A stretch of 64,000 nucleotides of DNA from Diphasiastrum complanatum (Eukaryota > Streptophyta > Lycopodiopsida > Lycopodiales > Lycopodiaceae): assembly GCA_029204225.1 (NCBI GenBank), contig CM055093.1, positions 18,563,041-18,627,040 on the forward strand, read 5' to 3'. The first letter of the stretch is position 1; each line of letters starts with the position of its first letter. Positions 6,882 to 42,100 of this stretch are shown one piece after another. Made by a program: the position numbers and the translations under genes. The notes below the pieces were generated by a model. The model worked only from the letters and a program-made list of their open reading frames with translations. It was not told the DNA's origin and searched no databases.

Positions 6882-6902
6882 CACGATGGTAGGATTCACT
6901 CC

Positions 6903-7712
6903 TTGCGTGGAGAGCCTAATATGCCTCCAGGTACTTTGATCACGACGATGCAGCTGCGTAACGTTCTGTGTAAGTGCATGTATGTTTGTTTCTTGTATGA
7001 TATGTCTGTTTCTGCTAATGAGTCTGATGTATGCCAAGAACAAACTAACCTTACTAAGAACCTAAATCGCCAAATTAGGGAGGAGTTTCTAGATGTGTTC
7101 ACGAACGAACTTCCATCTATTTTACCCCCTAAGAAAAATGTGGAGCATAGAATCAAGTTAATTCCTGAATCATCTCCTATTAATAGACCACCTTATAGAA
7201 TGAGTCTGAAAGAGGAGGAAGAGGTCAGAAGCATGATTGAGGACTATCTTGCCAAGGGGCAAGTAAGACCTAGCTTCTCCCCCTTTGCCTCTCCGATCAT
7301 TCTGGTAAAAGAGAAGGATGGGTCTTGGAGAATGTGTGTGGACTATCGAGGCTTGAACAAGATTACTATTAAGCATCGATATCCTATGCCACGTATAGAT
7401 GATCTTTTGGATGCCCTCCATAGTGCTACAGTGTTTAGCAAAATTAAGAGTGGTTACCACCAGGTGAGAGGTCGAGAAGAGGATGTGCATAAAACTGCCT
7501 TCCAGACTCATTTTGGACATTATGAATTTTTAGTTATGCCCTTTGGATTGACTAATGTCCCTGCAACATTTATGATGTTAATGAATGATGTGCTTAGACC
7601 GTTTATGGGCAAGTTTGTGGTTAATTTTGTTGATGACATACTTTTTTACAGTTGTGGTGATGCTATGCATGTTAATCACCTTATAACTGTGTTATCAACT
7701 TTGAGGGAATAA
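6903..7712 (+). pseudogene. Ty3/gypsy reverse transcriptase
   Basis: A 269-codon open frame contains [58 protein letters not shown] and the catalytic-type FVDDILFY. The end of the domain drifts out of frame at about 7712. It is the best preserved pol piece in the window. [17 protein letters not shown] segment confirms the family. Confidence 0.92.
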
Positions 7713-7899
7713 AACCGGATCCTCAGAAAGTTGTTGTTCTTCTTGTCTGGCCTGTTCCTACAGACTTGACAGCACTAAGAAGCTTTCTAGGGTTGGCTGT
7801 GTTTTATCGTAAAGGTGTGAAGTTTATTCACACATAGCTGCACCATTGACCGATATGTTACAGAAAAATAAATGGAAAGAATGGACGGAAGTTTAGCAG

Positions 7900-8767
7900 C
7901 AAAGTTTTGATGCTTTGAAACAAGTTGTGGCTGACTTTGTCACTTTAAAAATTGTTGACCCTCAAAAACCATTTGTCGTAGAAACGGATGCAACTGACAT
8001 CATCGTTGGGGCAGTTCTGATGCAAGAGGGTAGGCCTGTGGCCTTTGAAAGCAAGAAGCTCAAGCCTGCATAGAAGAACTATCCAACTAATGAGAAACAG
8101 TTGTATGCCATTATCCACGCTTTGAAGACATGGAGGCATTATTTGTATGGTGCGGAATTCTATGTGTACACCAACCATAACACTTTGAAATATTTCTACA
8201 ACCAGCCAGACCTAAGAGGGTGGCAAGCTAGGTGGGCTGAGTTGATGCAAGAATTTCACATGGAGATTCGGTACAAGAAGGGTGCCAAAAATCGTGTGGC
8301 TGATGCATTATCTCGAATATTGTATCAGATGTCTTTTGTGGTCATTGAAAATGACCTGATTGTTGAGATTAAGCATGCTCAACAGGAGGATCCTCATTGT
8401 CAAGGAATTGTGAGGGAGACAAATTTTGCGCAAGTAGAATCTCAGGATGAGAGTTATGGTCTCTTGACTCACACTTACTTTAAATATACCATAGAAGATG
8501 GTATGATCAGGATAAATGGCAAACTTCTCATTCCAACTTGTGAGGAGCTGCGTAGGAAGACTGTCCATTTGTGTCATGATTGCCCTAGTGCAGGTCATCC
8601 TGGTGTGGATAAGACCTATGAGTTGACCTTACGTAACTTCTGGTGGACTAAGCTTAAAATAGATGTTTACCATTACGTGATGCACTGTTTGAAATACCAA
8701 GTCACTAAAGCTGAAAGGATTAAACCTAGTGGAGTTTTACACCCACTATCTGTGCCAAAAGGAAGAT
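7900..8767 (+). pseudogene. Ty3/gypsy RNase H and integrase zinc domain
   Basis: RNase H motifs FVVETDATD (about 7975), MQEGRPVAFESKKLKP and HALKTWRHYLYGAEFYVYTN are followed by RYKKGAKNRVADALSR. The integrase N-terminal zinc domain has HDCPSAGHPGVDKTYE, but the second pair is CLKYQ, so one Cys of the HHCC set is lost. The reading stops at VPKGRL where the foreign LTR fragment begins at 8768, removing the integrase core. Confidence 0.88.
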
Positions 8768-8856
8768 TGTAGGAATCCAGAATCAAGACTATTCATTAAT
8801 ACAAAGTATTCTCAAAGAGAAGAGAGAGATGGTTAGATGACCCTCTTGTAGAAACT
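8768..8856 (-). repeat. 89-bp copia LTR 3' end fragment (minus strand)
   Basis: TGTAGGAATCCAGAATCAAG onwards is the reverse complement of the last ~90 bp of the LTR at 16046-16488 (ending GATTCTGGATTCCTACA). It ends abruptly at about 8856. It truncates the gypsy integrase precisely, marking an insertion or rearrangement junction. Confidence 0.85.
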
Positions 8857-8973
8857 GATGTGAAAGAACAGTGGCAACTACGATGCCGGGGAGAGTGGGG
8901 TCCGAGGCCTCAACAGGTGATTGGCGTGTCATTAGCCGATGAGACGAATTTTTTTTTTATTTTTTAGAAGTAA

Positions 8974-9110
8974 GCGAGTAATGGCGAGTAATAGACAGTG
9001 GGCGAGTAATGGCTATTGGTGAGAAATGCGCGAAAAATGGTTGTCGACGAGAAATGGCGAAAAATGACTGTCGACGAGTAATGGAGAGAAAATAGATTTT
9101 TACTTGTCGG
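8974..9110. repeat. Cluster of GGCGAGTAAT-type motifs, copy 1
   Basis: GCGAGTAAT occurs at 8974-8982, GGCGAGTAAT at 8983-8992 and 9001-9010, and GACGAGTAAT at 9073-9082. Variants GGTGAGAAAT and GACGAGAAAT lie between them. A second cluster of the same motif lies at 18399-18716. Neither matches a repeat I know. Both adjoin the same part of a copia polyprotein gene. Confidence 0.8.
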
Positions 9111-9118
9111 TTTGCCAA

Positions 9119-10759
9119 GAAAAGTACATTCGAAATGTACCTTATGTTCCTAAGAAATCTCATTTCGGTCTCTACAATCATGAATCAAGGATTGATTATA
9201 GAATTTAAAGAGGACAAATGTCTTATAAAAGACCCAAAGAGATCACTTTTAATTGTTGCTTCGAGAACATTGCGAGGAGGTTTGATTTTGTTGGATATTT
9301 ATGAACCTAAAGCTTTGACATCCTTTGGTCTTGTTGCTACTAATTCACATGCATTGGAGTTGGCTAAACTATGGCATGCGAGGTACGGGCACCTCAATTT
9401 TGGAAGTTTGAATATGTTGAAGAAATTCAACATGGTGGAATGCATTCCAAATATGGAGCATCCCGAAGGCATGTATGTGAAGGATGCATACTAACTATGA
9501 TAGAAAATCAATTTGGGCATACTTTGAAGATACTACGTACCGACCGAGGAGGGGAATACATTAAAAGTACGTTCGACACGTTTCTTCAAAGCAAAGGCAT
9601 TTTACATCAAATGACTGAACCTTACACACCGCAACAAAGTAAAGGCTATAGATTGTTTAATATGGATACTAACAAAATCATAGTGAGTCGTGATGTTCAT
9701 TTTGATGAGAAGAACTTCTATGATCTTGCGCCCATTCATGTCATGAAAGGGGGCATCCCCCAAGATGACTATGTTGAAGTGTTTCCAGATTTGGTATCAC
9801 CATCTAATATTGAAGAGGAGGGGCTGCCATCATCCTCTAATGGACAACCCACTGGTTCTTCAAGCGAACAACCCATAATTCATCAAGAGGAGCAGATTTA
9901 TGAAGAGGAACGACCTGTTGAAAACTTTGGACAGCATAGTCCAATTTCAGAGCACTTTGGACAACAAAGTGTTGACAGTTCAGATCACTTTGAACTGCAA
10001 AGCGTTGATTGAAGTAAGGCTTTTGGACAGCCTAAACCAGTCCCTAATTGGTTGTTGCAGACTTTGCAGGACAACAAAGTGAACCACCTGTATGAAGGGA
10101 AGACTTGTGCCTCATCTAAATCAGTAGAATTTGCTAATTTTTCTAATTTTGCTCTTACATCTATTGGGGATAGTGCAATAGAACTGGCTGTAAATGGGTT
10201 TATAAGATCAAGTACAAGTCCGATGGTACTATTGAAAGGCACAAGGCAAGACTTGTTGCCAAAGGTTAGGCGCAAAAGGAAAGCATTGATTATGAGAAAA
10301 CTTTTGCACCTACCACATGAATAACTATCGTAAGGATAGTCATTGCTTTGGCTGCCCATCATGGTTGGCATATGCACCAACTTGACATAAAGACAACCTT
10401 CCTCAATGGTGATCTTAATGAGGAAGTTTACCTTCAACAACCTGCTGGTTTTTTGGTTGCAGGTCTAGAAGACAAAGTGTGTCTTCTCAAGAAGTGGACT
10501 AAAACAAGCCCCAAGGATGTGGTATCAAAAGATACACACATACTTTTGTGATCGTGGGTTTTCTAACAGTCCTAGTGAATCTACGCTTTATGTCATGGAT
10601 ACATCTGAGTTTATCATCATCATTTTGCTATATGTTGATGATATTATCATTACGGGTAGTAATGAACAATATATTGCAGTCTTAAAATCTGATCTTGCTT
10701 CAGTTTATGATACATCAGATTTAGGCCAATTGCATTTCTACCTTGGTCTTGAGTTTTTG
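9119..10759 (+). mobile_element. Ty1/copia polyprotein fragment A (plus strand)
   Basis: It starts within the protease/pre-integrase region (LISVSTIMNQGLIIEF at about 9152), then LELAKLWHARYGHLNFGSLN (GAG pre-integrase), a shortened integrase (TDRGGEYIKSTFDTFLQSKG) and the integrase C-terminal KGYRLFNMDTNKIIVSRDVH. An IN-RT linker rich in FGQQSV phrases follows, then RT with HQLDIKTTFLNGDLNEEVYL and LLYVDDIIITGSN. It ends at LHFYLGLEF (10759), where opposite-strand copia sequence begins. Internal deletion of the integrase core, stops and frameshifts show decay. Confidence 0.9.
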
Positions 10760-10762
10760 CAA

Positions 10763-13051
10763 AGGTTGAGTAGTAGTACCTTGAGATGTATCCTCAAGTT
10801 CATCACTCGGAAGGTCAATGAATGGATCATCATTAGGTGGTATTCTCACTATACCATTTTTTCCACTGGAGGTGTCTATCTTCTCAGCATCCTCGTCTTC
10901 ATACATCTTGGATTCATCAAAGATAACATCACGGCTTATATGGATTTTGTTTTCCACTGGATCAAAACATCTATAGCCCTTCACACGATCATCATATCCT
11001 AGGAATATGCACTTGATAGCTTTCACATCAAGTTTACGTCTTTCTTCCTTAGGAATGTGTACAAAGGCCTTATATCCAAAGATTTGCAAGTGGTTCACCT
11101 TTGGCTTCTTCTTCGTGAATGATTCCTCATGTGTTATCTTTGGTATGGCAATGGTAGGACTTCTATTTTGCCATGCTACATGCTTCTGACCAAAAATATT
11201 TTGGTAGTTTCATCTCAGCTAGCATAGATCTGGCACTTTCCACAATCGTACGATTCTTGCGCTTAACTACACCATTGAGAGCAGGAGTATGAGCTTGCGT
11301 AAATTGTCTTTTAATCCCACATTGATCACAAAGATCATTGAAGTCATTAGACTTGTACTCACCTCCACTATCTGATCTTAGGACTTTGATCTTCCTACCT
11401 GTCTGATTTTCGACCAATGCTTTGAAGCTCTTGAAGTTATCAAATGCATCTGATTTCTTTTTCAAGAAGTAGATCCACGTCTTACGTGACATATCATCAA
11501 TAAAGGTCATGAAATAGAAGGCTTTACCTAAGGACATGGTCCTCATAGGCCCGCATAAATCTGTGTGGATTAAGTCTATGATGCTCTTTGCTCTTGCAAC
11601 ACCCCCTTTATTGAACTTCTCTCGATGCTTCTTCCCATATACACAGGATTCGCACATCGATTTCAAGTGATCTTCTATGGTAGGAAATCATGTTACCATC
11701 TCCAATCTTCTCATCAAACTGAGGCTTCCCAAGTTCAAGTGACCAAGCCTCTTATGCCACAACTCAGTTTGCGATGGAATGGATGATACAAGTCCATGTT
11801 GCCCCTTAATTGTAGCATTCAACCTGTACAATTTTGTATTGGGCTCTCTTACTCCATCCACAATAACTTTGAACTTTTGGTTCACATCCTTCACAAAGCA
11901 ACGATCATGGGCGAATTCTACTTTCAACTTTTGATCAGTAATGACTCCAACAAAAAGTAGATTTTTCTTCAAACCTGGTACGTAAAGTACCTCCCTGATC
12001 ATCCTACTTTTGCCATCAAGTAGTTGGATTGAAACGGTACCTATCCCCTTGATCTTGCACACCTCACCATTTGCTTGTGAAACAGATGTTCCATTATCCA
12101 ACATTTTCAAGCTATTGAACCAATTCTTGTTACCTGTCATGTGTCTTGTGGCTCCCGAGTCAATATACCATGCTTGAACATCTTGATTAGATGACAATGC
12201 AGATATGAAGATGCTAGAGTCCTCAGTCTCACCCTGATCAACAAGGTTACGTGCTTGTTTGGTTTTCCCTTGCCTTGTTTCGCCAGGAATTTGCGACATT
12301 CACTCTTCCAATGGCCCTTTTTACCACAATGGAAGCACATGTCTTTCTTTTTGGTCTTACTGGAAGATCCCTCATCCTCCTGAGACTTGGCAAATTGCTG
12401 CTTAGACTTCTTCTTGCCCTTGCCCTTGCCTTGTTTTTGGCGTGTTGCAAGTGCCCCGATCGTCAGTATTTTGACGTGTAGCTTTCACCATTTCTCGTCG
12501 TTGCTCTTCCTGCATCAAGTTTTTTGTGAGTTCGTCAAAGGTTGGCAATGCACAATCCATCAATATTCCACTCACAAACATCTGGTAGGGTTCTGCGATG
12601 CCACACAATGCATTGTGCACCAACTCCACATCACGTATGCGCTCACCAATAGAATGCAGTTCATCCCTCATTGTCTTGATTCTGGTCATGTACGTCTGAA
12701 TGTGCTCTCCTTGCTCCATGCAGGCACTATTTAGCTTCGACTTCAGAAACATGATTCTTGATGGATTTGACGTCTTGAACTGCTCCTTTATCACATCCCA
12801 TGCCTGTCTGGGTGTAACAGCATCACAAATGTGGGTAATGATGTGGACCTTCACTGACAAGTTAATGAAGGTCAAAGCTTTCCTCATCTTTTTGTCGAAC
12901 ACTTTGGTGACCTTCTCTCATCACCTGCAATGACTTCCCACACGTCTTTCTCCATCAATATGTTTTTCATTTTGAATTTCCACACTGCATAGTTGGAAAT
13001 CCCGTCCAATTTGCTACTTTCACTCAAAATGGACTGTCCCATGTTTGCCAT
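10763..13051 (-). mobile_element. Ty1/copia gag-integrase fragment (minus strand)
   Basis: Read leftward from an ATG at 13051: gag with GISNYAVWKFKMKNILMEKD (about 13015-12955), the UBN2-type region (12902-12402), a CCHC zinc knuckle CFHCGKKGHWKSEC (about 12338-12296), protease with YIDSGATRHMTG (about 12170), pre-integrase ELWHKRLGHLNLGSLSL, and integrase (11666-11163) with DLCGPMRTMSLGKAFYFMTF and SDSGGEYKSNDF. The integrase C-terminal KGYRCFDPVENKIHISRDVI ends near 10763. RT and RNase H are absent. It belongs to a different copia lineage from fragment A. Confidence 0.9.
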
Positions 13052-13852
13052 CGCAAAATTGCTTGAAACTTCTGCCGTAGGTTAAAAACAGTATGCCGAG
13101 GCAACAGTGATGTCAAAAGTTGAAAATAATGACCTTCACCTTTTCCCTTACTAGGCCACTCGCCGCTTTTCCACCAATTTGAAAGCCAAATCGGCGCCGC
13201 CTTCCGAAATGCACTCAGTCGTCAACTCCCAACAATGTGCCTAGTGGAATGGTGAAATCACTTCTGGCGCACTCCGAACACTTTCTCCATTGCAATCACT
13301 CTATTTTGCTATATCGTACTTGCAGGTACAGTTTGGGTGCCCTTCGTTTGGAGGTTATAGCCTTTCGTTTGGGTCAAAACGGGCAAAGGACTAGAAAATA
13401 GGGACTTTTAGAACTTTAGAACTGTTTTTTCACTTTGAAGAAACTCCACCCTTCAGTGAATTTGGACCCAACTCTCACTTCAAACTGAAATTTTTTAATG
13501 AAGTTGCAATGTGAATTACACTTCAGGTCCCTTCCATTGAAGTTCATGTGGATTTAAATAAATCCAATGGCTTATCAAGATCCAATGGCCCAGTCTCATT
13601 TAATCTTCATCGTCCATCCAGATGCCACGAAATTCGATGGTTCTGCACACTTTTGTGCACTGATGGAAGCCCTTCCAACCACTGGCTCACTTCAAAACAC
13701 TATGTAGGAGATTGGTTTGGGCGCGCAGACTTCGCCGCGACCTCCCTGTCTACGGCCGAGCCTCCCCAAGCTCGTTTTTGCTTGATTTAACTCGCCTATG
13801 GTTCAATTTGAGCACGATCTGAGGCTTGGACAGGGTCGCCCTTCTGATACCA
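13052..13852 (-). other. Leader and primer-binding site of the minus-strand copia element
   Basis: TCTGATACCA at 13843-13852 is the reverse complement of TGGTATCAGA, a likely primer-binding site, which would give this copia element a leader of about 790 nt before the gag ATG at 13051. A second such site lies at 14354-14363, about 511 bp further right, so either could be the true start, or one belongs to a nested relative. No clean LTR boundary was found. Confidence 0.5.
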
Positions 13853-14363
13853 AGTCTGTAGAGTGTTCACTCATGAAATTCCATGGAGAAACGGTGATTT
13901 TATCTCAACTTGACAAAGTGGCTTTTTTTCACCTTTTATCGCAAATTTGCTAGGTTAATTGTTTGGAGACAAATCTCTAACATAAACCTCATAATCTCTC
14001 CATGGCTGGTTGACAATGTGATTAGCTTCCTTCCTGTCCTTAAGGCATCCAAAACGGTGCACAAACAGCGAAGAAATCACCAGTTATGTATAAAAAACCG
14101 TAACCCCAAACCCGATTTCAATTTTCAGCTGGCTTCAAAATTGTCAAATTTTCACCAAATTTTTCCCTGTCTGATGCTATGCACAGGCTAATAATCCCTC
14201 TGTTGAGCTTGGCAAGCCTCTATAAACTAGAAACCATGCACCAGTGCTTCTCTTTCCGTCTTCAACCTGCCGTAAACCCCGAACTCTCAGAAGACAGTTC
14301 TCCCGAAGCTCTCTTCAACGACGATGTTGTATTGTGTACACTCTCTATACGGATCTGATACCA

Positions 14364-15162
14364 ACTTAGAATTTGCTTTGCACAGGAACACAGATCATGC
14401 TACACAGTAACACATACAGAAAACACTCTCCACAACAAGCTCACATAGCAACTGTATTTCTCAAAATGAAATTACATTGTACATATAGTTGTTCACTCAA
14501 GCAACCCATGCATGACCCAAGTTGCCGTTGGCGGGACGCACGTCCCATCGACTTGCCTCGTGGTGAGGCCAACTGATCCTTATCCATTGATAGGACCCAC
14601 AGTACAGTAACACAGTGATTCTACTTTAATTCTAACTGTTCGACCATGAGTTATCCTCTGACAGGCAGGACAAAAATATACTACAACGAGAATATGTTCC
14701 CTTTTGCCTAATCTGGGTCTTTAAACAAGAAAGATAATCTCAAAAAGAACCCACCGTCTGATAGACAGAAGTAAGAAAGAATTAATTTTAAAAAACCAAC
14801 AGATCCTCTGGAGCAGGGGATCTATCAACAAATATTGTCCCACGTGGATATGTGAATTGTTTAAATTTTAGGGTATCCATCTCTTGGATCTCTCTGTTAC
14901 ATCCATCTGTTACTCCACTTTATGTTTATTATCCATATTGATCAATTTTTTATTTACCCTTTTTTTTCTCGTTTCAACAAAAAAAAAGAAAGTGGGACAC
15001 CACAATTGTGCAACCCTTGAAGCAATCTCTTACCTCAAGACTACACTGCATTCCAGCCATGACTGCCGAATTTGTTAGATTACCTTATTTCAGATGTTTC
15101 TTGATGAGACAATTCAGCAATACACCAGATAACAGTACAATTTGGTGAAAAACAATGATTTA
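14364..15162. other. Unassigned interval, probable LTR-derived sequence
   Basis: The interval follows the second minus-strand primer-site look-alike, so LTR sequence of that element is expected here, but I could not define its ends. It contains a T-rich run at about 14940-14990. No gene is recognisable. Confidence 0.35.
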
Positions 15163-15456
15163 CCCACGCTCAAAGAAATCCCATAAGTAGAAGTGGGACT
15201 TTGTTCAAAGTGGATATAAGTGGTAAATGTCCAAGTGTTTAATGTCCCCTGGTACCAGCCGCTTTGCGGTAAGGGGGAGCACTTGGATTCGTGGGCGACT
15301 AGGCGTCCGGATCCCAAAACGCGACTCACAGAAGGGGCAAAAGGCTCCATGATTTTGGTGCAACCTCTGAACCAGAAAGGTTAAGTTGCATCACGGTGCA
15401 ACCTCTAAACCAGAAAGGTTAAGTTGTATCCGTTGAAGGCCCACCAAATTCCTACA
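15163..15456 (+). repeat. TRIM left LTR, 5'-truncated
   Basis: It begins directly at CCCACGCTCAAAG, which corresponds to position 28 of the right LTR, and ends TTCCTACA. Differences from the right copy include a TGTTTAA insertion near 15237 and a GGGGAC difference near 15315, so the two LTRs have diverged since insertion. An internal 38-bp repeat lies at 15357-15394 and 15395-15432. Confidence 0.85.
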
Positions 15457-15503
15457 TGGTATCAGAGCAGGCAACGTGATCTGTGCCCCACTTTGAGGGG
15501 GAG

Positions 15504-15817
15504 TGTTGGAATGGCAAAGTGGAGCCACAGCCCACGCTCAAAGAAATCTCATAAGTAGAAGTGGCACTTTGTTCAAAATGGATATAAGTGGTGAATGTCC
15601 CCTGGTACCAGCCCCTTTGCGGGTAAGGGGGAGCACTTGGATTCGTGGGCAGCTAGGCGTCTGGGGACGGGATCCAGGAACGCGGCTCAAGGAAGGGACA
15701 AAAGGCTCCACAATTTTGGTGCAACCTCTGATCCAAAAAGGTTAAGTTGCATCACGGTGCAACCTTTGAACCAGAAAGGTTAAGTTGTATTCGTTGAAGG
15801 CCCACCGAATTCCTACA
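15504..15817 (+). repeat. TRIM right LTR
   Basis: The 314-bp copy begins TGTTGGAATGGC and ends TTCCTACA, with TG...CA termini. The 38-bp internal repeat (GGTGCAACCT start) lies at 15717-15754 and 15755-15792. Confidence 0.88.
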
Positions 15818-16045
15818 CTACTGAGCCTAGAGACCATAATGAAGTACTACTATATCGGACTACTTGATGAGATCAAGTCTGGTATGAAGAAGTTCACGTG
15901 CTACACTTCATTGTCATAAATATGTCAAGATGCGGTCATGATGGAGAATATTATCTTGAAGAAGAGAGCAGATCACTCCTGTCCAAACACAGAAATATCG
16001 GATGGGAAATAAAAAAAAAATGAAGGTTCAAGCAGACAAGGGAGA

Positions 16046-16488
16046 TGTTAGAATAATAAATGTAAATGATGTAGAAGCCATAGGTTACTATGACCCCAAA
16101 GGTCGAGATCTGTGTAACCATGGTCATTTATATTTTAGGCTCAAGTTAGTATGAAACTAACTTCTAGGGACTCGTGGGTCCGCTAGGGGCCTATACATGT
16201 GAATTAAGTACCTAACTTGTTATTTGGGGTACTTAATTATTTTATGTAACTTATGGTAGCTAGATAGCCATTAGTCACGTTATTGGACAACCAACAGTCA
16301 TGAAGGTAGATAGCCAACTTGGACTACTTATATGTAGCCATTCATTTGTATGAGACACACTTTTGTTAAGCAATCTACTATTCATATTGGTTGTCCACAA
16401 GCTTCTACAAGAGGGTCATCTAAGCATCTCTCTCTTTTCTTTGAGAATACTTTGTGTTAATGAATAGTCTTGATTCTGGATTCCTACA
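16046..16488 (+). repeat. Ty1/copia 5' LTR
   Basis: It runs from TGTTAGAATAATAAATG to GATTCTGGATTCCTACA and is followed at once by the primer site TGGTATCAAAGC (16489-16500). It shares the ATAGGTTACT and TGTGTAACCATGG blocks with three other LTRs in the window, and its 3' end with the fragment at 8768-8856. Confidence 0.88.
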
Positions 16489-18360
16489 TGGTATCAAAGC
16501 CATTTTATAGAATTGATTGCTTGCTGGAGAGCACCCAATAGGCAGCCACATTTCTCCTCTTCTGGTTCATAAAAGTCAGAACTTTTCTGATTTTTGTGGA
16601 GAGAGACCTGTTCGGATCCTTCTTGTTTTTTGTGCAAGAAATTGCAAGGAAAAGCTTGGAACCTCCTCATTTGGGAGCCAGCAGTAGGGCGCCCATGCTT
16701 AGCTAGTTTTCATGTGATTGAAATCAGATTACATGCTTCAAATTTCAGATTTTCTTCTTGGAGGAGGGCGCCCATCTACCTTGAAGACAAATGCGTTTTT
16801 GACACATTTTTAGTGGCTGCAATTTTTCTATTTTTGAGCTTGGAAGAAGGTCCTACCATCTGCTCCAGTAGAACATTGAGTGCACACCATTTTACCACAA
16901 AAGTTCTAATTGTGGTTTTGGCTTCATTGGAAGCCTGCATATTAGTTAGTATTATGTTATTTCAGCAGAATACAGCCACCTATATCTTCTTGTGAATGAG
17001 CTATTGCATGTGGTGTATTGCAATCTATAGTGCTCATTAATTCAACTTTGATCTTGCTGATTTTTTAGTAGATTTTGGCCTGGAATCTGCTTTTCCCATC
17101 TACTATTAGTAAAATTTTCAGAAATGGCTAAAGAATCTGAATCTATAGGATCTTTGTTCAATGAAGATAGGTTGGATAGAACTAATTTCTCCTTGTGGTG
17201 CTACATGATCAAAAACCTCCTTATTGCTAAAGGTTTGTTTGAAGTTGTAAGTGGTGATGAAGAGAGGCCACCTAGTTTGGCACCTACTACACCGTCAAGA
17301 GCTACTTCTTCAACACATGTGGAGGTGTCTTCCGAAGAACAAAAAAAGTGGGATCGACGTGATACACAAGCACATTCGGTCATAGCGCTATCCGTGACGA
17401 GATCAATCCTACCTCACATTCGATCATGCAAGGCTTCCAAGAGTGCTTGGGAAGTACTTGCCAAGATGTTCCAAGTGAAAAATACGGCGAAAGTGCTTTT
17501 TCTACGTAATCAACTCTCAACATTGAAGATGCAAGAGGGTGATACGCTTTCAAATCACTTAATGAAGATCAAGGATCTTTGTGAAGAGTTTCTTAGCATT
17601 GACGAAATTGTCGAGAACTCTCAATTTGTTTCAATTACTCTTAATTCACTTCCTCATTCCTATCTTCCATTTGTGTCTACTTTAAGCATATCTCTTAGGG
17701 GACAACAAATCCCCTTTGAAGAGCTTGTTGGCTTACTTCTCCAAGAAGAACAAACAAGGATTAATTTTGGTGAACAAGAAGATCAAGCCTTCTTCACCAA
17801 AGGCAAAGGCAAGGGCAAGTGGAAAGGTAAGCCTTCTTCTTCCAAGGATCAAAAATCCAAGGAAGGCCAAGATCAAGGATCCAAAAAGAAGGGTAAGTGC
17901 CATTATTGTAAAAAGTTTGGGCACCACATAAAGGAATGTAGGAAGAAGCTTACTAAGGATAAAGAGAAAGGTATTGATACAAATACAACCATGATTTCAT
18001 TAGAACATCAAAAGGAGAATGATTCTTTCAATGGTGATTTTGCTTTTGTCACTAACAATCTCATTTCTAATCAAAATAAGATTTCTACCACTTCTCGACT
18101 TGCTGGTTTTTCAGCAGAAAACAGCACTAGTTCAGCTTTGCAAGTTGCTGTTTTTTCTTCCATTGATTGGGTGATTGATAGCGGAGCTACACGCCATATG
18201 ACTCACCATAGAGACGTCTTCACAAAGCTTACAAAAATCAAAGATGGAAGCAAGGTTCAAGGTGTTGACAACACCTCCTATCCAATTGAAGGCATTGGAT
18301 CTATACCCCTCATTCTTCCCAATGGAATAGATCAAGTATTGTACTATGCTCTGTATCGAC
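16489..18360 (+). mobile_element. Ty1/copia element B, 5' part (leader and gag)
   Basis: The leader runs from the primer site to the ATG at 17124. Gag follows in one open frame: FNEDRLDRTNFSLWCYMIKN, the UBN2 region, a Lys/Gly-rich stretch, and a CCHC knuckle CHYCKKFGHHIKEC (about 17899-17940). The protease start WVIDSGATRHMTH comes next (about 18169). The frame fails after DQVLYYALYRQQ, where GGCGAGTAAT-motif sequence begins. The element at 40325-44583 is the same family. The 3' part and 3' LTR are missing. Confidence 0.9.
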
Positions 18361-18389
18361 AACAAGTAATGATACCGGAAAAAATGTGA
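17124..18389 (+). pseudogene. Ty1/copia gag-protease open frame, 3'-truncated
   Basis: This 421-codon frame is the longest uninterrupted transposon ORF in the window. It starts MAKESESIGSLFNEDRLDR, has the zinc knuckle CHYCKKFGHHIKEC, and carries the aspartic protease motif DSGATRH. It ends after only the first part of the protease because unrelated sequence replaces the rest from about 18360. The open frame suggests a relatively young insertion that was cut afterwards. Confidence 0.88.
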
Positions 18390-21299: not shown

Positions 21300-24200
21300 A
21301 TGGAAGAAAATTTGGAGCTCCGGGTGGTGGCTCTGCAGGGAGCAGCTGCGGAGGTTCTGTGTGCCTTGGAGCTGCAGCATTTGCTAATTGGAAGATCACA
21401 TGAATGCACTTACCCACCTGAAATCCTGTCTTTGCCTTGTCTTTCTTGCATCTCTCCGGAAGATCAAGCACTCTTGGCCTCTGATTTCAAGGTCAGTATT
21501 GAAAACTCAACTCCCACTGTCGTTTGTTTTATTTGCTGATGGTTGTTTTCTGCTTATTTGCAATTGAAGGTGAAATATTGGGATATGGCAGGAGCAAAGG
21601 TTTATCCGGAAGGCATTGGCCCCATTCCAGGTCAACTTGAAGCTGCTTAAGGAATTGAAGCCAAACGTGATCATCACGCAGGACCGGTGTGAAGCATGCG
21701 GAGGCGGCCTGGATGAGCTTCAGAAAGCTTGTGGAAGATTAATTTTTGGAGATGATAAAAGATGTCGGCTCTTGTCCCTCAAACCTCTGATGGTAGGACA
21801 CATTCTCAATTTTACTTACATGCAATACCTCAAAACGCTTTGCCCAAGGGCTATTCGAAATTTTTCTTTGTCTTCCAACGGTGATGGCACTGATATCTTT
21901 CCAGAATGCTCCATAAGATTAGGATCCAACAACTATATATAGCTCCGTTTTCTTTTCCGGAGAAGATATAAGGATCCCTCCCACCAGCCACTGCTATAAA
22001 TTTTTCAGTTGAGTTTCTCTTTCATATTGGCCTTCCATAGTGGTAAAATTACGTGAAGAAGGCGATCATTTCGAGATGCTAACGTTAGTGATGCGAATAT
22101 TGTATGCCCATGCTAGGAAATGAACGAATTGGGTTTGTATTGATCTAGGACGAGGCAGGTGTCTACTAGGACATTGGTTGAGCTTAGTCATTCTTTCTGT
22201 GCAATTTTATTGAAACATTGAAGTTTTCAGCTAGATCAGTAAGATCTCCTGAATGTGGAGGAATGAAAGTCCAACAACGTACATTTTTACTTTTCTGTGA
22301 ATTGAGTAAAGGTTTGAAAGGAAGCTTATAGAAGTGGCTATTTGTCCTTGAAATGGCCTGAAGTCCACCTGATATTTGAGCTCTGATTTGGGCCTCGTAA
22401 CTGATAAGTACAATGCCGACATTGATGGGATTCTAAGGACATGACAAGGAGGCTTTAAGGGAACTTAAGCCCACCTTTCTGCTAAATATTGATGCCTAAT
22501 TGACAAACATCATGGTAGTTTGTCAAGTTAGGGTTCTTTACATTGATCAAGAAAATTCAATCTCGAAGCTCTAGGTGTCATCTATTCCTGAGGATAACTC
22601 ATGCTGTCCGTTTGGCTTTGCAAAGCAATTGTTTTGAGATTGGTTATCCCTGATACTTGCCGTTTTTCTTTGTTACAATCTGCTGTTAGACATCCTCTAT
22701 TCCTCAGGCACAAGTTTGCTCGGTTTGATATGCGGGCAATTTTGCATTAGTGAAGGATTTTAAAAATTTCCTCTTAGGATGTTGTGAGCAATTCAACTGT
22801 CATTTTGTTGAATTCAATTTGTATACATGCTACAGATTGAAGACATCTTTCAAAATATACAGTCTGTTGCAAACGTTTGCTACTCCAGTGGTAAAGGCAA
22901 GAAGTTGGTGGCGAATCTCAAAACTCGGTGGAAGCATGCCATGCAGAGGAGCCCTCAGTGGGCAGATGGGGTTCCTCGTATAAATGTTGCTTGCCTGCAG
23001 TGGCTGGAGCCGCTGATTGGCGCAGGCTACTGGATCCCCGAGATTGTGGCATGTGCTGGAGGCTTCAATATGTTTGGTGATGTAGGCCATCACAGTCCCG
23101 TTATTTCCTGGCCAGAGTTTATGCACGCTGATCCAGATGTTATAATCATTGTGTGTCTTGGACTCAACATAGAAAGAGCAAGCTCTGTGCTAGCATTACT
23201 TCAAAATGCAAACCAGTGGAGGCAGCTTAGAGCTGTGATTGCCAAAAGGGTCTACGTTGTAAATGGTGAGCGGTAAGGTCATCTTGCAATTATGTATTTT
23301 GTAACAGATTCAAAGAAAATTAATAGTTTTCCTAGTTATTTCAGCAAAACTTGAATGTTGGCCTTTTCAGTTTTGCGTTCATGTTGTGCAGAAAATATCA
23401 TTTTTATTGCCTTTGACCTAAGTGGTGGTGAACCAGCATTCCGGACCTTAATTTTTGCCCTGGATATTTTGTTGATTAAAAAGAGTCCTAAGGTTAGTTT
23501 TAAGGTCTATATATACCATTACATTTTGCTCTGGTGGTAAAAATTTAAATCGAAAAATAGCTCATGGTTTCTACAATAATTAAATTTCTTTCCAACGTTC
23601 TTCACCCAAAAGAAATTTTTTGAGACCTCGAAAGTCTCTATGGCACTACATTGCTATGCTTTTTGATTCCAACATATTTCTGGAGTGATGTACTTCTAAG
23701 TTGCTGGAATTCCTTGTCAGTTCCTAGCCAGGAGGCAGCAGACTAGGGTATGGTAATGGTACTTAAAAAAAAGAAACTTGGCCTGAAAAGCTTGATTGTT
23801 GGACTCATAATGCCTACTAGATAGAAATTATTATAAAGGCAGAGACCATAAGCAATCTATCTGCATCTTTAACAGGGGCTCATATGACAATGAAAACAAA
23901 GGTCTGAAACAGACAATTTCTCCAGAATGTAGGTCATCAAAATTAAAGGCCTTGAAACAAACGGTTTTTTCCAGAATGTGGAGGTCATCAAAATGTTGAC
24001 TGTTTTGATCATGTAACACCTTCTTGATGCTAATCCAACATAACATCTGAGAAGTAGAGCTAGAAGAATCAAAATAAATGACATACCCATATCAATATGG
24101 TTTGTGACTGTTCTCTGTCAAGACCACTTTGATGTGTCCACGGAACCCCTTGTTGAAGCTCAACCAATGTACGATAATATCTATAAAGCTAGGAGAATAT

Positions 24201-25060
24201 TGAAGGTGAAAGATTGCTGTTGAATTTCAGCAATTATTGTTTGAATAGACAATGTGAAGATAAAGAGTGAGATATCTATCAAAATACTTAGCCTGGCTTC
24301 CTTGAAAGACCAAGAGGCTCTTGAGCTAGGAAAAAATATAGAAATTTTTTTGGGATTAGAGAGATATACTTGGGTCCAGGGATCCATTGAACATATTGAT
24401 CAATCAATCTCAGTTTGAAGCTATCCGCTCAAAAGGCAAAATATTCTTTAGAGAACATTTGAAAATGGAATGCTTTAAAAACTGTTAGGATATGTGTATT
24501 TCATATGCATTCCAGATTCCAGAATGTAGCATTTTGGATCGACGTGCACTATGCTTTTGATCCTGTCCAACTTAGTTACAAGCCAGATATTATTGAGAGG
24601 GACATCTAGAGAACCATGGTCAACATTTGTCATTTTTTTAATATTTGGATAAACTAATTTGGGCATTTGGGTCTGTTATTTATCATTTGGCAACTATTGA
24701 GGCACTCGCTTATGACGTTTAAAAGCTTTTGCATTTTCATCCCTTGTATATGGACATGAGCTGTAATCATTATAATAACCTAAAAACATCAACTTCTTGC
24801 GGTGGCATGATTTCTTAATGAAATTTCCAGCTTTTTGAGTGTCTGCTTTCATCTCTGAAATTCAGCTATTTTTTGTGCTCACAAATACATTTACATGACA
24901 GGCATTGACTAAATTTGTTAGGTTTCAGGTATTTTAACTTGCCTGGAACAACAGTTGTGGATTCTGCGGAGCTAGTTGTGGAGATTTTATATGGATCACG
25001 TAATGAGCAGACATTTCTTTATCATGGAAATGGCTATGTAAGGTGGGAAGTAAGAAATAA
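21300..25060 (+). other. BtuF-like (cobalamin-binding-protein family) domain, exons 1-3 and start of exon 4
   Basis: The order of motifs follows the bacterial BtuF/TroA-like family (COG0614): a first strand RVVALQGAAAEVLCAL (residues 8-23), GRSHEC then TYPPE (31-41), PNVIITQDRCEAC (88-100), LEPLIGAGYWIPEIV (188-202), AGGFNMFG (205-212), a DPDVIIIVCLG segment, and the C-terminal RYFNLPGTTVVDSAELVVEI (from residue 277). These proteins normally sit in the bacterial periplasm and hand ligand to an ABC importer. Here the domain starts at residue 7 with no export signal, so a cytosolic binding or sensing role is more likely (inference). HEC and CEAC are possible metal ligands. Confidence 0.82.
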
Positions 25061-28000
25061 TGTGGAACATGCTGTCCCTTCAAATGGACTGCAGAGTTTG
25101 GCACGCAGATCAAATCAGGGCACTGTAGGTGCAGAAGATTTAGAAGGTGAGCATGCTGGGAGACGTGGAATTTTGGAGGATTGCCTCATGGAAAAGGAGG
25201 TTCAAAATGGACGAGTAACTTTTGTTTCTCATATGCACTCGGACTCAGATTCAACGGTATCCTCTGAGAAGAAAGCGAGTGTTTTGGCTTCTTCTAGGAA
25301 GGGCAATGGATGGGATGATTGCTGTGAAGAAGGGCATGTTGGGTATAACAAGAGTGCATCGATGTTCCGCATGAATTCTTCAAAAAGAAACAAAGATTTA
25401 GTTGATAATCGCTCAAAGACAGGTAGACGTTTAGACTTCAGTAGTTCAAGTATACTTGATTCACTAGCTGAAATTTCTCTGGCAGATTCCAATCCATCTG
25501 CTTTGAAAGTTATCGGCGAGGTATCAGGTCAACAGTACTCTGGACATTCAATGGACAGCACTTTGACCGATCAGGCTTCTCCCTCCCTCCATGAAGGCAG
25601 ATTTGCAGATGCTGTTGATCAAAGTAGTGGAGCGAAGTTAGTTACGAATGTGAGACACTATGCTGTTCCTCCAACATTGGAAATGGACTTCTCTGCTTGT
25701 TATACTAAAGATCCAACCATGCATAATGCTGGTGCAATCGCCAAACGATCTTGTGAAACTTCACCTGTTAAGGGATCGCCTTTCTCTGCTGGCAGATCGT
25801 CCAATGCGAGAAGTTCTTGGGCGTCCATATCAAGTTCTGGGACCCTCTCTGAAAAAGAAGTGCTGTCAAAAATGTGGGCATCAACAGAAGCTGCTGCAAA
25901 ATGCCAATCTTCAGAGGCACTCAGGGGTTCAATCAAGCGTGGAAAATATTCGCACGACAGTGCCAAGGACGTACCAGATTGTGTGGACATCGCAACTGTA
26001 TATAAGCTAGTGGTCGGTACCGATGTTCAACTTGATAAAAGGTCTGAAGAGGTGAAGAATAACAATGCCACTTCTGGTAGGAAACGCTGCAGAGCCAAAC
26101 ATCCTCAAGCAGACCCGTCGCTTAACAAAAAGCCAATGGGTGCTGTTCAGAATGGCACAAATGCGATGTCGAAAAGTTTTGATTGCACTTTGAGTTTGCG
26201 TAATTCCAAATTATCAGTTTTTAGTCAGAAAGCTTTGGCTCTGAGAAATCTTATTTTCAAGGCAGTGAAAGAACTGCCATTTGCAGACTGTCTTCTTCTT
26301 AGCGGGGGACTTGGCTCTACTATCCTGGCTGAAGCTGCACAATTGGCCTTTCCTAAAAGCTATAGAATAGGAGTGACTGTTCTTGCTGGGCCCGATGCAA
26401 AAGACAAACACTTCTCTCCACTAATATCAAAAGAATATGACATGAAGCACATTGTTGTTGGTGGTGGGGATAAAGGCAATCCGGTGGATTTATTGGAAAT
26501 GCAGCTTGACTTCGTTGTTGAAACTCTACAAACATTCAACCCCTCAGAGGTAAAAATAAAATCATCTAGCTCCCCAAATGTTTCAGATATGAGTTCTATT
26601 GTGTTTAGGTATGGTTTGTTTAGTGGAAATTTGATTTGCTACGTCATTCTTATGATCATAGATAAGGTAAAACTCATTTTCTGGGACTTTTTTCACTTGG
26701 AAACGCCTTCCTCAACTCTACGTTTCGCATCTCCCGGCTTGAGGAAATGCTTCAACTTTTACCATACTACAAAGCATGAAGATGAATTGTAGCCTAAATG
26801 TTTGGTGTTTGGCAACTAGCTGATGTATTGTCCATCAATGATTCTGAGGACAACTGTTATGATTGATGGTACAGATACAAAAAGCAATAGCTTTAGCAGC
26901 CGCTTTAAGGGAGGCTAAGCGCTTAGGGTTCAGCTCTGTTGTCACAGGTGATGGTGCAGATGAGCTTTTTGCAGGGTAAGGTGCAGCGCAGACCGAAATG
27001 CTTTCTTTCATGACTCGCAGTGTCCTGAGAGTCTCTCTGTTTTGCAAATTTTCAATAGGAAGATTACTATTAACTAGTTTACAAAGTCAAGATTTCCAAT
27101 GACCACGTTTTTTTGTACAGGCATTACTGTATGCAGTCCATGACTGAAGATGAGTTTGACTGTTATCGCTATCAGCAAATAAGTTCAATGACATATTCCA
27201 GTGTTTCCCTGGGCACAGCTGTTGGAATTAAGGTAGGTCTTGCATCATTGCTTGTAAGTTAAGAGCTTAGGCATTTTGAGTGCTCTTAATTATGTGCATG
27301 TTAATGTTAAATCGTTGCCCTAGTAACATCTACAGGAGACACAGATTTGTGGTCGCTGCAAAGCTCAATAATTTTCCCCATGGAGGTTTGCACTTATAAA
27401 GTACCTCCAAACATCTGCAAGACCTGATTTTAAATGGAAGGATATTTCTTTTTCGCTGACTATTGCACAAACATTCCAATAACAATTTTTGATTCCATGT
27501 CATTTCATCTTATACAGGTACTACAACCTTATCTTAATCAAAAGGTGGTTGAATTTGCAGCTGGGTTAGGCAAGGTAGATCTGATTGGTCCTAAGGATGG
27601 AAAAGTGCATGATAAATTCTTTCTGAGACATGCCTTTTCTGAAGTTATATCTGCAAGACGTTCAAAAGATGCAATTGAGGTATACCTTTGATTTCTAACT
27701 GGAATTCTAGGTGAATTTGTCTTTAACAAATGGCATGCCTCATAGTTTTCCATAAACAATTGACTACAAACACCAATCTTTATAAAAGAAATGTGCGAGA
27801 GATGGCATCTCATCCCAACAGATTTTTTATTCTCCACACGAATATCACATTTTTGCCATTGGAGATCACTATTTTTGAAGTAGCCATTTAAACTCCTTCC
27901 ACAAATGTTGCACCCTTCTCAACAGGTTGGCTCTGGGACATACGTTCTTTCACAGTATTTTTCTGGGCAAGTATCTTGGGCACAATTCAAAGTAGAAGCC

Positions 28001-28639
28001 AGTCGTATTTTCCGGGAAGATCGTGTTAAGATTAGAGATCCTGAGCATTTAGCCTACTATTTAGTTTTTCAAAGGATATTCAAAGACCGTGCACCGCCTG
28101 GAATGGTTAGGTGGGGTTCAAATCCTTGTGTTGCTTGTGGCTATCAGATGACAATGATGAAGCAAATGTGCTGCTCAGTATGTGGGCATTATCCTGCTGG
28201 GTTGAAAATCTCATGCAATAATCTAGAGCACTCTTCGTCACTGAAGGACTTGCACAACAACTTAGATGAGTCGAATTCTAAGGTGGATAACCAAACTTTG
28301 AGGCAAACATTCATATCAAAAAAATGTCTTGTGAAGACTTCTGAAAAGACCCCAGTCAATGAGTCCTGCCATACAGTCTGCAACAACACTGAAAGCAATG
28401 ACACGTTGGCTAGTCAATCAGCAGATGTACCAACAGACTTGGGAGCTTTGAATGATGATTATGCAAGTGATTTTGTCGCGTGCAAAAGTCCAGTTGCAGA
28501 ATTGCAAGAGGTTGACCATTTTGAGAACCCCAATCTAGAGTCCGAAGTGAGGAAAAAAAAGAGATGGTTTTGGAAACTAGCAGCTGGTATTACAATGCTT
28601 GTAGTTGTGTTGAGATTTCAAAAGAAACGTGCAGGCTAG
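21300..28639 (+). CDS. BtuF-like / asparagine-synthetase-like fusion protein with predicted tail anchor
   Basis: I infer eight exons: 21300-21491, 21592-21792, 22836-23272, 24929-26549, 26875-26975, 27121-27232, 27518-27679 and 27926-28639. All junctions are GT-AG and phase-consistent, giving 1179 residues. An in-frame TGA just upstream supports the ATG at 21300. Residues ~7-300 are a BtuF-type corrinoid/metal-binding fold, ~300-705 a Ser-rich linker, ~706-1000 an AsnB-type PP-loop synthetase domain, 1010-1028 a zinc-ribbon-like cluster, and ~1156-1172 a short hydrophobic segment flanked by Lys/Arg. There is no signal peptide and no class II glutaminase domain. The substrate is unknown. The introns argue against bacterial contamination; bacterial ancestry of the N-terminal part is inference. 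Confidence 0.82.
25061..26213 (+). other. Long low-complexity linker between the two folded domains (exon 4)
   Basis: About 400 residues rich in Ser, Asn, Lys and charged residues, encoded entirely inside one 1621-nt exon. No domain is recognisable. It contains many Ser/Lys clusters typical of phosphorylated disordered linkers. Its position joins the BtuF-like domain to the AsnB-like domain. Confidence 0.7.
26214..28100 (+). other. Asparagine-synthetase-like (AsnB C-terminal) PP-loop domain
   Basis: The domain starts SVFSQKALALR (residue 706). The PP-loop reads LLLSGGLGSTILAEAA, with SGGLGST at 735-741 (26301-26321), where AsnB enzymes have SGGLDSS. The second ATP-site motif, GDGADELFAGH (842-852), is intact. 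YSSVSLGTAVGIKV and LNQKVVEFAAGLGKV follow, as in the helical C-terminal half. AsnB uses this fold to adenylate a carboxylate before amidation. The Asp-to-Gly change in the PP-loop may lower or alter activity. With no glutaminase domain, ammonia or another nucleophile would be needed. Confidence 0.78.
28121..28189 (+). other. Zinc-ribbon-like cysteine cluster
   Basis: C1010-x2-C1013, then 11 residues, then C1025-x2-C1028 with an extra C1024, in the context RWGSNPCVACGYQ and CCSVCGHYPAG. The spacing fits a zinc ribbon. Such ribbons occur beside PP-loop domains in tRNA thiolation enzymes as well as in other families, so a nucleic-acid or protein-binding role is possible. Zinc binding is inferred from spacing only. 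Confidence 0.6.
28550..28639 (+). other. Predicted C-terminal tail anchor and stop
   Basis: The last residues read RKKKRWFWKLAAGITMLVVV followed by LRFQKKRAG and TAG at 28637-28639. A 12-16 residue hydrophobic stretch between two basic clusters, placed at the very end, is the form of a tail-anchored protein. The short length and strongly basic flanks are more usual for mitochondrial, plastid-envelope or peroxisomal outer membranes than for the ER (general knowledge; targeting here is inference). The body of the protein would face the cytosol. Confidence 0.6.
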
Positions 28640-39175: not shown

Positions 39176-42100
39176 TCAACACAAGTAATGGAGAGCAATG
39201 CTTAGCCAAAACTGAAAAGTGTGACACAATAAGCCAATATGTACTCTAGCTACTTACTGAATGTAGGGCACCCCCAAAAGTCAAGATAGGGCCCCTAACC
39301 ATATTAGATCTCTAAGGACCCACGAGTCAGTACATGACCAAAATTGGGTCCATCACAAATTAAGACAAACTTAACATGGCCTAAATAACTACATACCCAT
39401 GGTTACACAAATTTTGACCTTTTGGGTCAAAGTAACCTATGGATTAACTTTAGCGTAGTCATTTATTTCTAACAATTGCTAGACCACTGTCACTTATGTA
39501 TTGGACCTACTAGAGGGTTGCCTGTTATTAGAAGCGTAAGACTACAATTTTGATGTTTTTCTATGGTCAATGGATTGCCATCGAAGCAAGTCTTAAGGCC
39601 AGCTTTATTCCCCACAAACTTAGACATTTCAAACAATTTCTCAATTAATTGCTTGCACTTAGTGGTAGCTTCTTGGGCTAACAAGTGGAGTAGATGATGT
39701 GGCAAGGTTTTCTTGGAGGCAGACTAAGCCCCATGGTAGGAGTATTACTAGACTGGTTAGAGGGGTTGGTCATTGATTGGAGAAGTGGCTTAGAAGGATT
39801 CAATTGGGCTTCTAGGCTTTGCAAAATAGTCATGACAACATTAAATTGTGACTCCTTGTTTTTAAATTTTCCTACGAGCCTTGTCCAACCTCTTAGCAAA
39901 ATTTCTCAACAAATAAGAATAACACCACTACAGGTGAAAATAATTTGAAAAGGAAAACTGTGAATATTGTGCTCTTTGAAATTGAGCACATCGATAAACC
40001 CTTTTATTCTAAATATTTAGTAGTACTTGGTGGACATCGAGATGATGACACATTGATTTAAGCTAATACCGTTAGGTGCAAAGACGTCAATATTTCCTTG
40101 TGATGTTAATAATCATCCCTTGATCTTGATCCACAAAAAGGTAGAGAGCGCAAACTATAGTGTGTAGGCATATGACACCAATTTTAGTATTCTCTAGGGG
40201 TTAAACTTTATTCACTCCAATTTGTGGCATATAGCTTGATCAATGCCAAGAGATCAAGATAGTGCAAATATCATTATCTACACCACCACTTTGGGACATC
40301 TATTTTGGTAGCAGAAAATCATCAAGCTGCTGATTTTTGCAGGAGAAGAATCTGTTCATCTTCTTGTAACTTTTTTGCAAGAAATTGCAGGAAATTGAAG
40401 GGCACCTTCACCTATTTGAGAGCTAGCAGTAGGGCGCCCATGCTCAAACCAATTGCATGTGATCTTGACTTAATTACATGTTGAAAATTTCAGATTTACT
40501 TCTTAAATGAAGATACATGTGTTTTACACACATTTCTTGCTGAAATTTCCCTGTTGGTGAGCTTGGAGTAGGGCGCTACCATAAGTATATGCACATAGTG
40601 TGCACTCTTTTTAGCCACAAATTTCTGGTTATGGTTTAGGCTTCATTTGAAGTCTACCTATTTGTGAGCATTCTGTTTTTTGTGTAGAAATCAGCCACCT
40701 ATTTCATTACTTGTTGAGCAAATTGCATGTTGAGTATTGCAATCTATTGTGCTCATAATATCAGCTTTGAGGGTGCTTTTGTCTTGGAAAGTCTATTTCT
40801 TATCTACTACAAGCTGATTTTTCTGTTATGGCTAAAGAATCGGAGTCTTTTGGTTCTTTATTTAATGAAGATAGGCTGGATGGCACAAACTATTTCTTGT
40901 GGTGCCACATGATAAAGAACCTTCTAATTGCTAAAGGTTTGTGGGAAGTAGTTAATGGTGACAAAGAGAGGCCGCCTACCTGGGCACCTATTACACCATC
41001 TAGAACAACTACTTCATCATCTACGGAGGTGTCTTCCGATGAGCAAACAAGTGGGATCGACGAGATGCACAAGCACATTCCGTCATTGCATTATCAGTGA
41101 AGAGATCTATCCTTCCTCATATTAGATCATGCAAGATTTCCAAAAGTGCTTGGGAGACTCTTACTAAGATGTTTCAAGTAAAGAATGCGGCAAAAGTGGT
41201 ATATCTTTGAAATCAACTTTCTATCTTGAAGATGCAAGAAGGTGATTTGCTTACAAACCACTTGACGAAGATCAAGGATCTTTGAGAGGAGCTTCTTAGT
41301 ATTGATGAGGTGATTGAGAACTCACAATTTGTATCTATTACTCTCAACTCTCTTCCGAATTATTACCTTCCATTTGTGTCATCATTGAGCATTTCTCTTA
41401 GGGGACAATAAATCTCCTTCGACGAACTTGTTGGCTTACTTCTTCAAGAATAGCAAACAAGGATCAACTTTGGTGAACAAGAAGATCAAGCTTTCTTTGC
41501 AAAAGGCAAAGGCAAAGGCAAGTGGAAAGGGAAGCCTTCTTTCAAAACTTCCAAAGATGATAAAAAATCTAAGGAAGCTCAAGATCAAGGCTCCAAGGAG
41601 AAGGGTAAGTGCCACTATTGCAAGAAGTTTGGGCATCACATCAAAGAATGTAGGAAGAGGCTTGCAAAGGAAAAAGAGAAAGGTAACGATACAAGTACCG
41701 CAATCATTACTTTGGAACAACAATTTGGAAAGGAGGATAATCTTTCTCTTATGATCATTGCTTCGGGACCATTACGTGGTGGATTGTTCTTTATGGATAC
41801 CTATGAGCGAAGAGCTTCATCATCTTTTTGTCTTGTTGCATCAAGTTCACATTCTTTGGAGTTGGCTGAATTATGGCATGCTAGGTTTGGACATCTCAAC
41901 TTTTCTAGCTTGAAGATGTTGAAGAGATTCAATATGGTTGAAGACATTCCTAATATTGAGCATCTCAAAGGACATGTATGTGAAGGATGCATTCTTGGAA
42001 AATTTCAAAGGCAAGCTTGTCCAATTGATGGAACTATTAGAGTTGATGGCAAATTTGATTTGGTTCATAGTGATGTATGTTGTCCAACGAGGACCGAATC

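Follow-up and report, generated by a model that had tools for sequence, protein, structure and literature searches.

Land plants are described as having no B12-dependent enzymes (PMC2667541, PMC10828217). A BtuF-like fold is known in the green lineage from CBA1, an algal B12 uptake protein, and CBA1-like sequences are reported from almost 80% of Streptophyta, where their role is not known (PMC10828217). PP-loop proteins of the DUF71-B12 group (COG2102/PF01902) stand beside BtuF-type proteins in B12 salvage, 75 of 102 DUF71-B12 genes adjoining B12 transporter genes, and archaeal fusions of AsnB with DUF71 are described from Methanohalophilus (PMC3541065). Here we analyze a nuclear gene of the lycopod Diphasiastrum complanatum, contained in a stretch of 64,000 nucleotides (the window; contig CM055093.1, first base C2:18563041), whose predicted product joins a BtuF-like domain to an AsnB-like PP-loop domain.

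The first half of the protein passes PF01497, the family of BtuF and the other class III substrate-binding proteins (COG0614), and its relatives share their fold; unlike BtuF, it has no visible leader, and its nearest relatives are leaderless and cysteine-bearing. It resembles CBA1 in having a BtuF-like fold, but the CBA1 motifs F214-F215-N216-x-E218 and W394-F395-E396, taken from PMC10828217 and compared by motif only, are absent from it. The second half aligns its GDGADE and lysine motifs with the C-terminal domain (PF00733) of E. coli AsnB, but has no glutaminase domain and has lost the PP-loop aspartate. Being AsnB-like and ribbon-bearing, it also differs from DUF71-B12, which is another PP-loop family. 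The Methanohalophilus fusions likewise combine an AsnB-type PP-loop with a module of the same metabolic circle, but the other parts described in them are a glutaminase domain and DUF71, and the passages describing them mention no BtuF-like domain (PMC3541065).

In open-licence PMC literature we found no description of a BtuF-like/AsnB-like fusion; the first-pass annotation of this DNA knew of no described function for it. There are public plant records named for an Fe/B12-binding domain. What is new is that some stand-alone prokaryotic relatives of each half are tied to corrinoid (B12) salvage. We give a rough probability of 0.45 to the reading that the plant gene is a repurposed fusion of two prokaryotic-type corrinoid-salvage modules, with a tetrapyrrole-like ligand and altered PP-loop chemistry.

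A hand-built model based on stop-free frames has eight exons on the + strand and runs from an ATG at 21300 to a stop ending at 28639, exactly the ends given in the first-pass annotation, which had also placed both domains in one protein. It encodes 1166 residues, 13 fewer than the 1179 predicted there, and all its introns are GT-AG. The features are as follows (window coordinates).

21300..21491, + strand: exon 1, residues 1-64; start of the BtuF-like domain, HEC motif, C36
21631..21792, + strand: exon 2, residues 65-118; TQDRCEAC motif (C84, C87)
22836..23272, + strand: exon 3, residues 119-263
24929..26549, + strand: exon 4, residues 264-804; end of the BtuF-like domain, Ser-rich linker, PP-loop; stop-free
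25068..26222, + strand: linker, about residues 311-695; serine-rich, no Pfam family
26301..26321, + strand: PP-loop SGGLGST, residues 722-728; glycine in place of aspartate
26875..26975, + strand: exon 5, residues 805-837; GDGADE motif at residue 829
27121..27232, + strand: exon 6, residues 838-875
27518..27679, + strand: exon 7, residues 876-929; lysine 925 within RRSKDA
27926..28639, + strand: exon 8, residues 930-1166 and stop
28127..28183, + strand: ribbon cysteines, CVAC (997-1000) and CSVC (1012-1015)
28568..28618, + strand: hydrophobic segment (Kyte-Doolittle), residues 1144-1160, basic residues on both sides

Because exon 4 is stop-free and holds both the last conserved BtuF-like stretch and the PP-loop, the join lies in the DNA itself. 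The surrounding frame (24909-26789) is open for 627 codons, from YFNLPGTTVVDSAELVVEIL, where the BtuF-like domain ends, to LLLSGGLGSTILAEAA at the PP-loop; there is no stop between 25060 and 26200, where one would have been expected had these been two separate genes. The chance of a stop-free exon of 541 codons is roughly estimated at ~5e-12. A gene-prediction artefact merging two genes would suit a model known from genomic DNA, with no transcript seen, but one stop-free exon bridges the join, likewise in the second copy of the gene described below, and we consider such a merger very improbable.

When the whole protein was compared with Pfam, Peripla_BP_2 (PF01497) matched residues 9-260 (42.6 bits, cut-off 27.5) and Asn_synthase (PF00733) residues 718-843 (39.7 bits, cut-off 21); no third family, and hence no glutaminase family, appeared up to E 1. 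Both halves thus fall in the families first proposed for them, the second without the glutaminase, as anticipated. By itself, the open frame of exon 3 (22812-23276) matches PF01497 at 2e-11, and five further frames, scanned one by one, gave no match. Scores stay below the cut-offs of the NCBIfam BtuF model NF002894 (14.5, curated cut-off 234) and of TIGR01536, glutamine-hydrolysing asparagine synthetase (44.3, cut-off 267.1). The protein opens with the first BtuF strand (MEENLELRVVALQG...), and no leader is visible by eye, no signal-peptide predictor having been run, which agrees with the earlier statement that an export signal is lacking. About 400 residues separate the two domains, with 15% Ser over residues 311-735. 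Near the C terminus, CVAC...CSVC forms a ribbon by pattern; the hydrophobic segment beyond it may be a tail anchor, judging by Kyte-Doolittle values, on which one segment inside the BtuF-like domain scores equally high.

Scanning of prokaryote genomes gave at least 570 stretches related to the BtuF-like half; the best 80, together with six plasmid loci, make up the 86 loci studied. Over most of plant residues 1-308, these best 80 of at least 570 stretches are 33-40% identical. The six plasmid relatives, found by tblastn, are 25-33% identical; two are labeled ABC transporter substrate-binding protein, one each FhuD, cobalamin-binding protein, and hypothetical protein, and one has no annotation. 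Where the start is shown (30 of 86 loci), the products mostly begin directly at the first strand. All 86 relatives agree at thirteen positions, four of them cysteines; since the two scan patterns contain the first three cysteines, only the fourth is free of selection. The predicted structure of a Planctomycetaceae relative, modeled from 65 rows (predicted local distance difference test 96.3, predicted template modeling score 0.93), is that of a class III binding protein, with heme- and B12-binding proteins as its nearest folds, followed closely by binders of iron and siderophores. Judged by secondary structure, the cysteines would lie in loops after strands and, in this fold, would face the cleft. 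By whole-domain match, the plant BtuF-like half is a predicted member of this leaderless solo BtuF-like family.

Some members of the family stand among B12 genes. Six of the 86 loci have a PF01902-type (DUF71) PP-loop gene upstream in the same orientation (Pfam identity confirmed singly for three), and all six neighbor genes carry ENGEF/YH, which is given as the signature of the DUF71-B12 subgroup with its predicted role in B12 salvage (de Crecy-Lagard et al., PMC3541065). The chance of a DUF71 neighbor, calculated for 48 loci with assumed gene numbers, is 3e-9 to 1.5e-6. A cobalamin riboswitch was detected upstream on the same strand in five of the 62 loci scanned (L028, L048, L050, L052, and L069): the first 25 gave none, three chosen for their DUF71 neighbor gave one (L069), and the next 34 gave four. 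At L079, PduO, DUF71, the BtuF-like gene, and CobQ follow one another, PduO and CobQ exceeding NCBIfam cut-offs. L069 combines the riboswitch (115.6 bits) with PduO (by similarity), DUF6580, DUF71, and the BtuF-like gene, and also holds a putative TonB-type receptor. With one query sequence each, PduO was found in two of the 86 loci and CobQ in one. A DUF6580 gene lies upstream in 13 of 86 (L010, L012, L018, L028, L029, L032, L037, L043, L046, L052, L067, L069, and L072), and its product is a candidate corrinoid-related membrane protein. In a scan of 95 of 96 upstream open reading frames (ORFs), from 52 of the 86 loci chosen to leave out near-copies and plasmids, DUF6580 occurred seven times, Diphthami_syn_2 five times, and the next family three times; among downstream ORFs (83 of 99 scanned), no family occurred more than three times. 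At L066, a gene for B12-dependent NrdJ lies two genes upstream of the BtuF-like gene.

The plant protein could instead be a metal or siderophore-type binder unrelated to corrinoids, with a metal or an Fe-S cluster held at the four-cysteine site. Four cysteines (three of them within the scan patterns) recur in 86 of 86 relatives, probably after cleft-lining strands, iron binders are among the best fold matches, and ribonucleotide reductase genes of class I type lie near the focal gene in three loci with distant BtuF-like genes (L004, L006, and L071). The riboswitches and the cob/pdu neighbors argue against this explanation, which we regard as quite unlikely.

Relatives of the AsnB-like half were found in Chloroflexota (the phylum of L044), where 12 of 201 genomes had a match, two of a new kind. 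One genome (G208) encodes a stand-alone protein of 328 codons with 33% identity (3e-40, query 17-328 of 329), and the other (G144) a protein of 314 codons (3e-24); the ribbon is present in both. When these two proteins were aligned with the plant half and the alignment served as the query, eight of 245 genomes of one Chloroflexota class matched below 1e-90, clearly separate from ordinary AsnB, the next best match being at 3.5e-50. The eight proteins have 311-348 codons and are 29-33% identical to the plant half. By the ribbon and the overall match, the plant half appears to belong to this short ribbon-bearing family. All eight nearest relatives are too short to hold a glutaminase domain, which speaks against the earlier suggestion that the BtuF-like part occupies the place of that domain.

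Six of the eight ribbon AsnB-like genes lie near cob or Btu-type genes, two of these cases (L164 and L165) resting on genes below NCBIfam cut-offs. At L161, CobU, a DUF71-like PP-loop gene without the ENGEF/YH signature, and CobT are followed by the ribbon AsnB-like gene, and the cluster also includes a CobD-like aminotransferase (below cut-off), CbiB, and a Btu-type transporter. A CobD-like gene, CobT, CobS, and CobU are found at L163, CobT and CobU at L166, and CobU at L162, while L164 and L165 combine DUF71 and a BtuF-type protein with a gene of Btu-type transporter or BtuR type. At L167 and L168, no cob or Btu-type gene was seen. The BtuF-type proteins near ribbon AsnB-like genes best match the ordinary secreted kind and are 23-26% identical to the leaderless kind. 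A borderline cobalamin riboswitch (L161:15078-15213; 32.9 bits, cut-off 31.5) heads the L161 cluster.

At E <= 1e-55, neither 194 Cyanobacteriota genomes nor 240 genomes of the L079 phylum, both draws without a known positive, yielded a member of the ribbon AsnB-like family; 194 genomes of the L049 phylum, likewise a draw without a known positive, gave 7.9e-43 at best, within the ordinary AsnB range. Plasmids gave no AsnB-like match at 1e-5; with a limit of 10 there were ten records, the best at 5e-6 to an asparagine synthase-related protein. Among 30 genomes holding BtuF-like loci, three had an AsnB-like match, none of the ribbon kind, and no AsnB-like neighbor was seen among the predicted genes of the 86 loci (best blastp E 0.025), although these loci span 3-13 kb and gene prediction overlooked the focal gene itself in 19 of them, so that small neighbors may have been lost.

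Several observations weigh against a simple catalyst built from two corrinoid-salvage modules, and some concern the prokaryotic relatives. At the majority of BtuF-like loci none of the B12 genes sought was seen, so the link to B12, clear in part of the family, is an assumption for the remainder. Moreover, the leaderless BtuF-like gene is present in 33 of apparently the same 245 genomes, in none of them together with a ribbon AsnB-like gene. Since an overlap of about one genome is expected, this zero is weak evidence, yet it lends no support to a direct partnership in prokaryotes; with no genome holding both, the fusion would join modules of the same metabolic setting rather than two known partners. 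The other observations concern the plant protein. Of the thirteen positions invariant among BtuF-like relatives it retains 11 and has changed two; it keeps C36, C84, and C87, the fourth cysteine is replaced by L226, with C225 adjoining, and a cleft aspartate is substituted. Its PP-loop reads SGGLGS in both copies of the gene, with glycine at residue 726, instead of SGGxDS, and SGG[L/V]D is found in all eight stand-alone relatives. SGGxDS is the PP-loop motif of ATP pyrophosphatases.

The SGGLGS loop and the long Ser-rich linker would suit a pseudoenzyme or sensor that binds a tetrapyrrole or metal chelate, its PP-loop half no longer hydrolyzing ATP and serving as a scaffold or nucleotide-sensing part. 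The retention of GDGADE, the RRSKDA lysine, and all four ribbon cysteines, with 44 of the 65 positions invariant in the eight relatives, stands against such a loss, and we consider this explanation somewhat unlikely. Lysine 925 of RRSKDA aligns with a stretch of E. coli AsnB, WRQKEQ, whose lysine has a catalytic role.

The data establish the fusion in the DNA, the two families, and the B12 neighborhoods of some prokaryotic members. Beyond these, under the fusion reading, the BtuF-like cleft would hold a cytosolic ligand resembling a corrin or another tetrapyrrole, which the PP-loop module would reach through the flexible linker and either act on or respond to. The ancestral enzyme would have used ATP to activate a side-chain carboxylate, which free ammonia or an amine would then convert to an amide; in the plant, the altered PP-loop and cleft suggest that this chemistry has changed, weakened, or been lost. 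The C-terminal segment may tether the protein to a membrane. The first-pass annotation had suggested a ligand-controlled amidating or adenylating enzyme, perhaps acting on a tetrapyrrole or metal chelate. A possible corrinoid or tetrapyrrole link is supported by the prokaryotic neighborhoods; the active amidating enzyme fares less well, given the glycine in the PP-loop and the two changed invariant positions. Amidation is probably ancestral and is unproven for the plant protein, whose full activity is doubtful because the loop aspartate has changed, and the protein is almost as likely to serve as a sensor or scaffold.

A cyanobacterial (plastid) origin was considered and tentatively rejected, as the plant row stands apart from the 11 cyanobacterial rows in a tree of 87 rows. 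It adjoins a Kuenenia row, but support there is weak (86/60) and the plant branch very long (3.36 changes per column), which makes this placement tentative too. Closely similar BtuF-like proteins occur in records titled Kuenenia (L008) and Rhizobium (L014), and the L014 bin may be contaminated. The long branch and the lost invariant residues might also mark a decaying relic of a B12-using ancestor, its function fading after land plants lost B12 metabolism, and a second plant BtuF-like gene (C3:42.198 Mb) is strongly diverged too. Against such decay, both copies keep 1166 codons open across eight exons, and the introns of the window copy are GT-AG; we think decay unlikely.

Whether land plants retain a working corrinoid- or tetrapyrrole-handling protein made from two fused B12-salvage modules is rather doubtful. 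If they do, organisms held to have no B12 metabolism would have a hidden B12-related function, which might be the binding, amidating, inactivating, or sensing of microbial corrinoids or of a plant tetrapyrrole. The gene is a concrete candidate, both halves belonging to families of prokaryotic corrinoid-salvage neighborhoods, and the two little-described prokaryotic families (leaderless four-cysteine BtuF-like and ribbon-bearing AsnB-like) are themselves candidates for B12 salvage. As the CBA1-like streptophyte sequences show, the plant gene is not alone in having a B12-type binding fold and no known role (PMC10828217).

The plant genome searched comprises 1.74 Gb. PF02965 and PF02310, families of B12 use, gave no match in it, in a search that also missed the window's own PF01497 gene. 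A second copy of the fusion (C2:11488072-11494984, L102) lies ~7 Mb away on the same contig and is 99.7% identical over 7,986 bases; it is equally open, with four coding differences and two residue changes in exon 4 and an identical PP-loop, and represents either a recent duplication or an unmerged haplotype. The diverged BtuF-like exon mentioned above (222 codons, C3:42197933-42198460, L103) shares ~32% identity with its best bacterial matches and 24% with the fusion; no exon was found upstream of it, and its twin on contig C2959 (L104) is 99.8% identical over 7,332 bases. Six of ten further long frames scanned in the window are LTR-retrotransposon frames, and four had no match. LTR-retrotransposon frames, with gag, reverse transcriptase, RNase H, and integrase parts, flank the gene on both sides (window 6882-18386 and 41454-42254).

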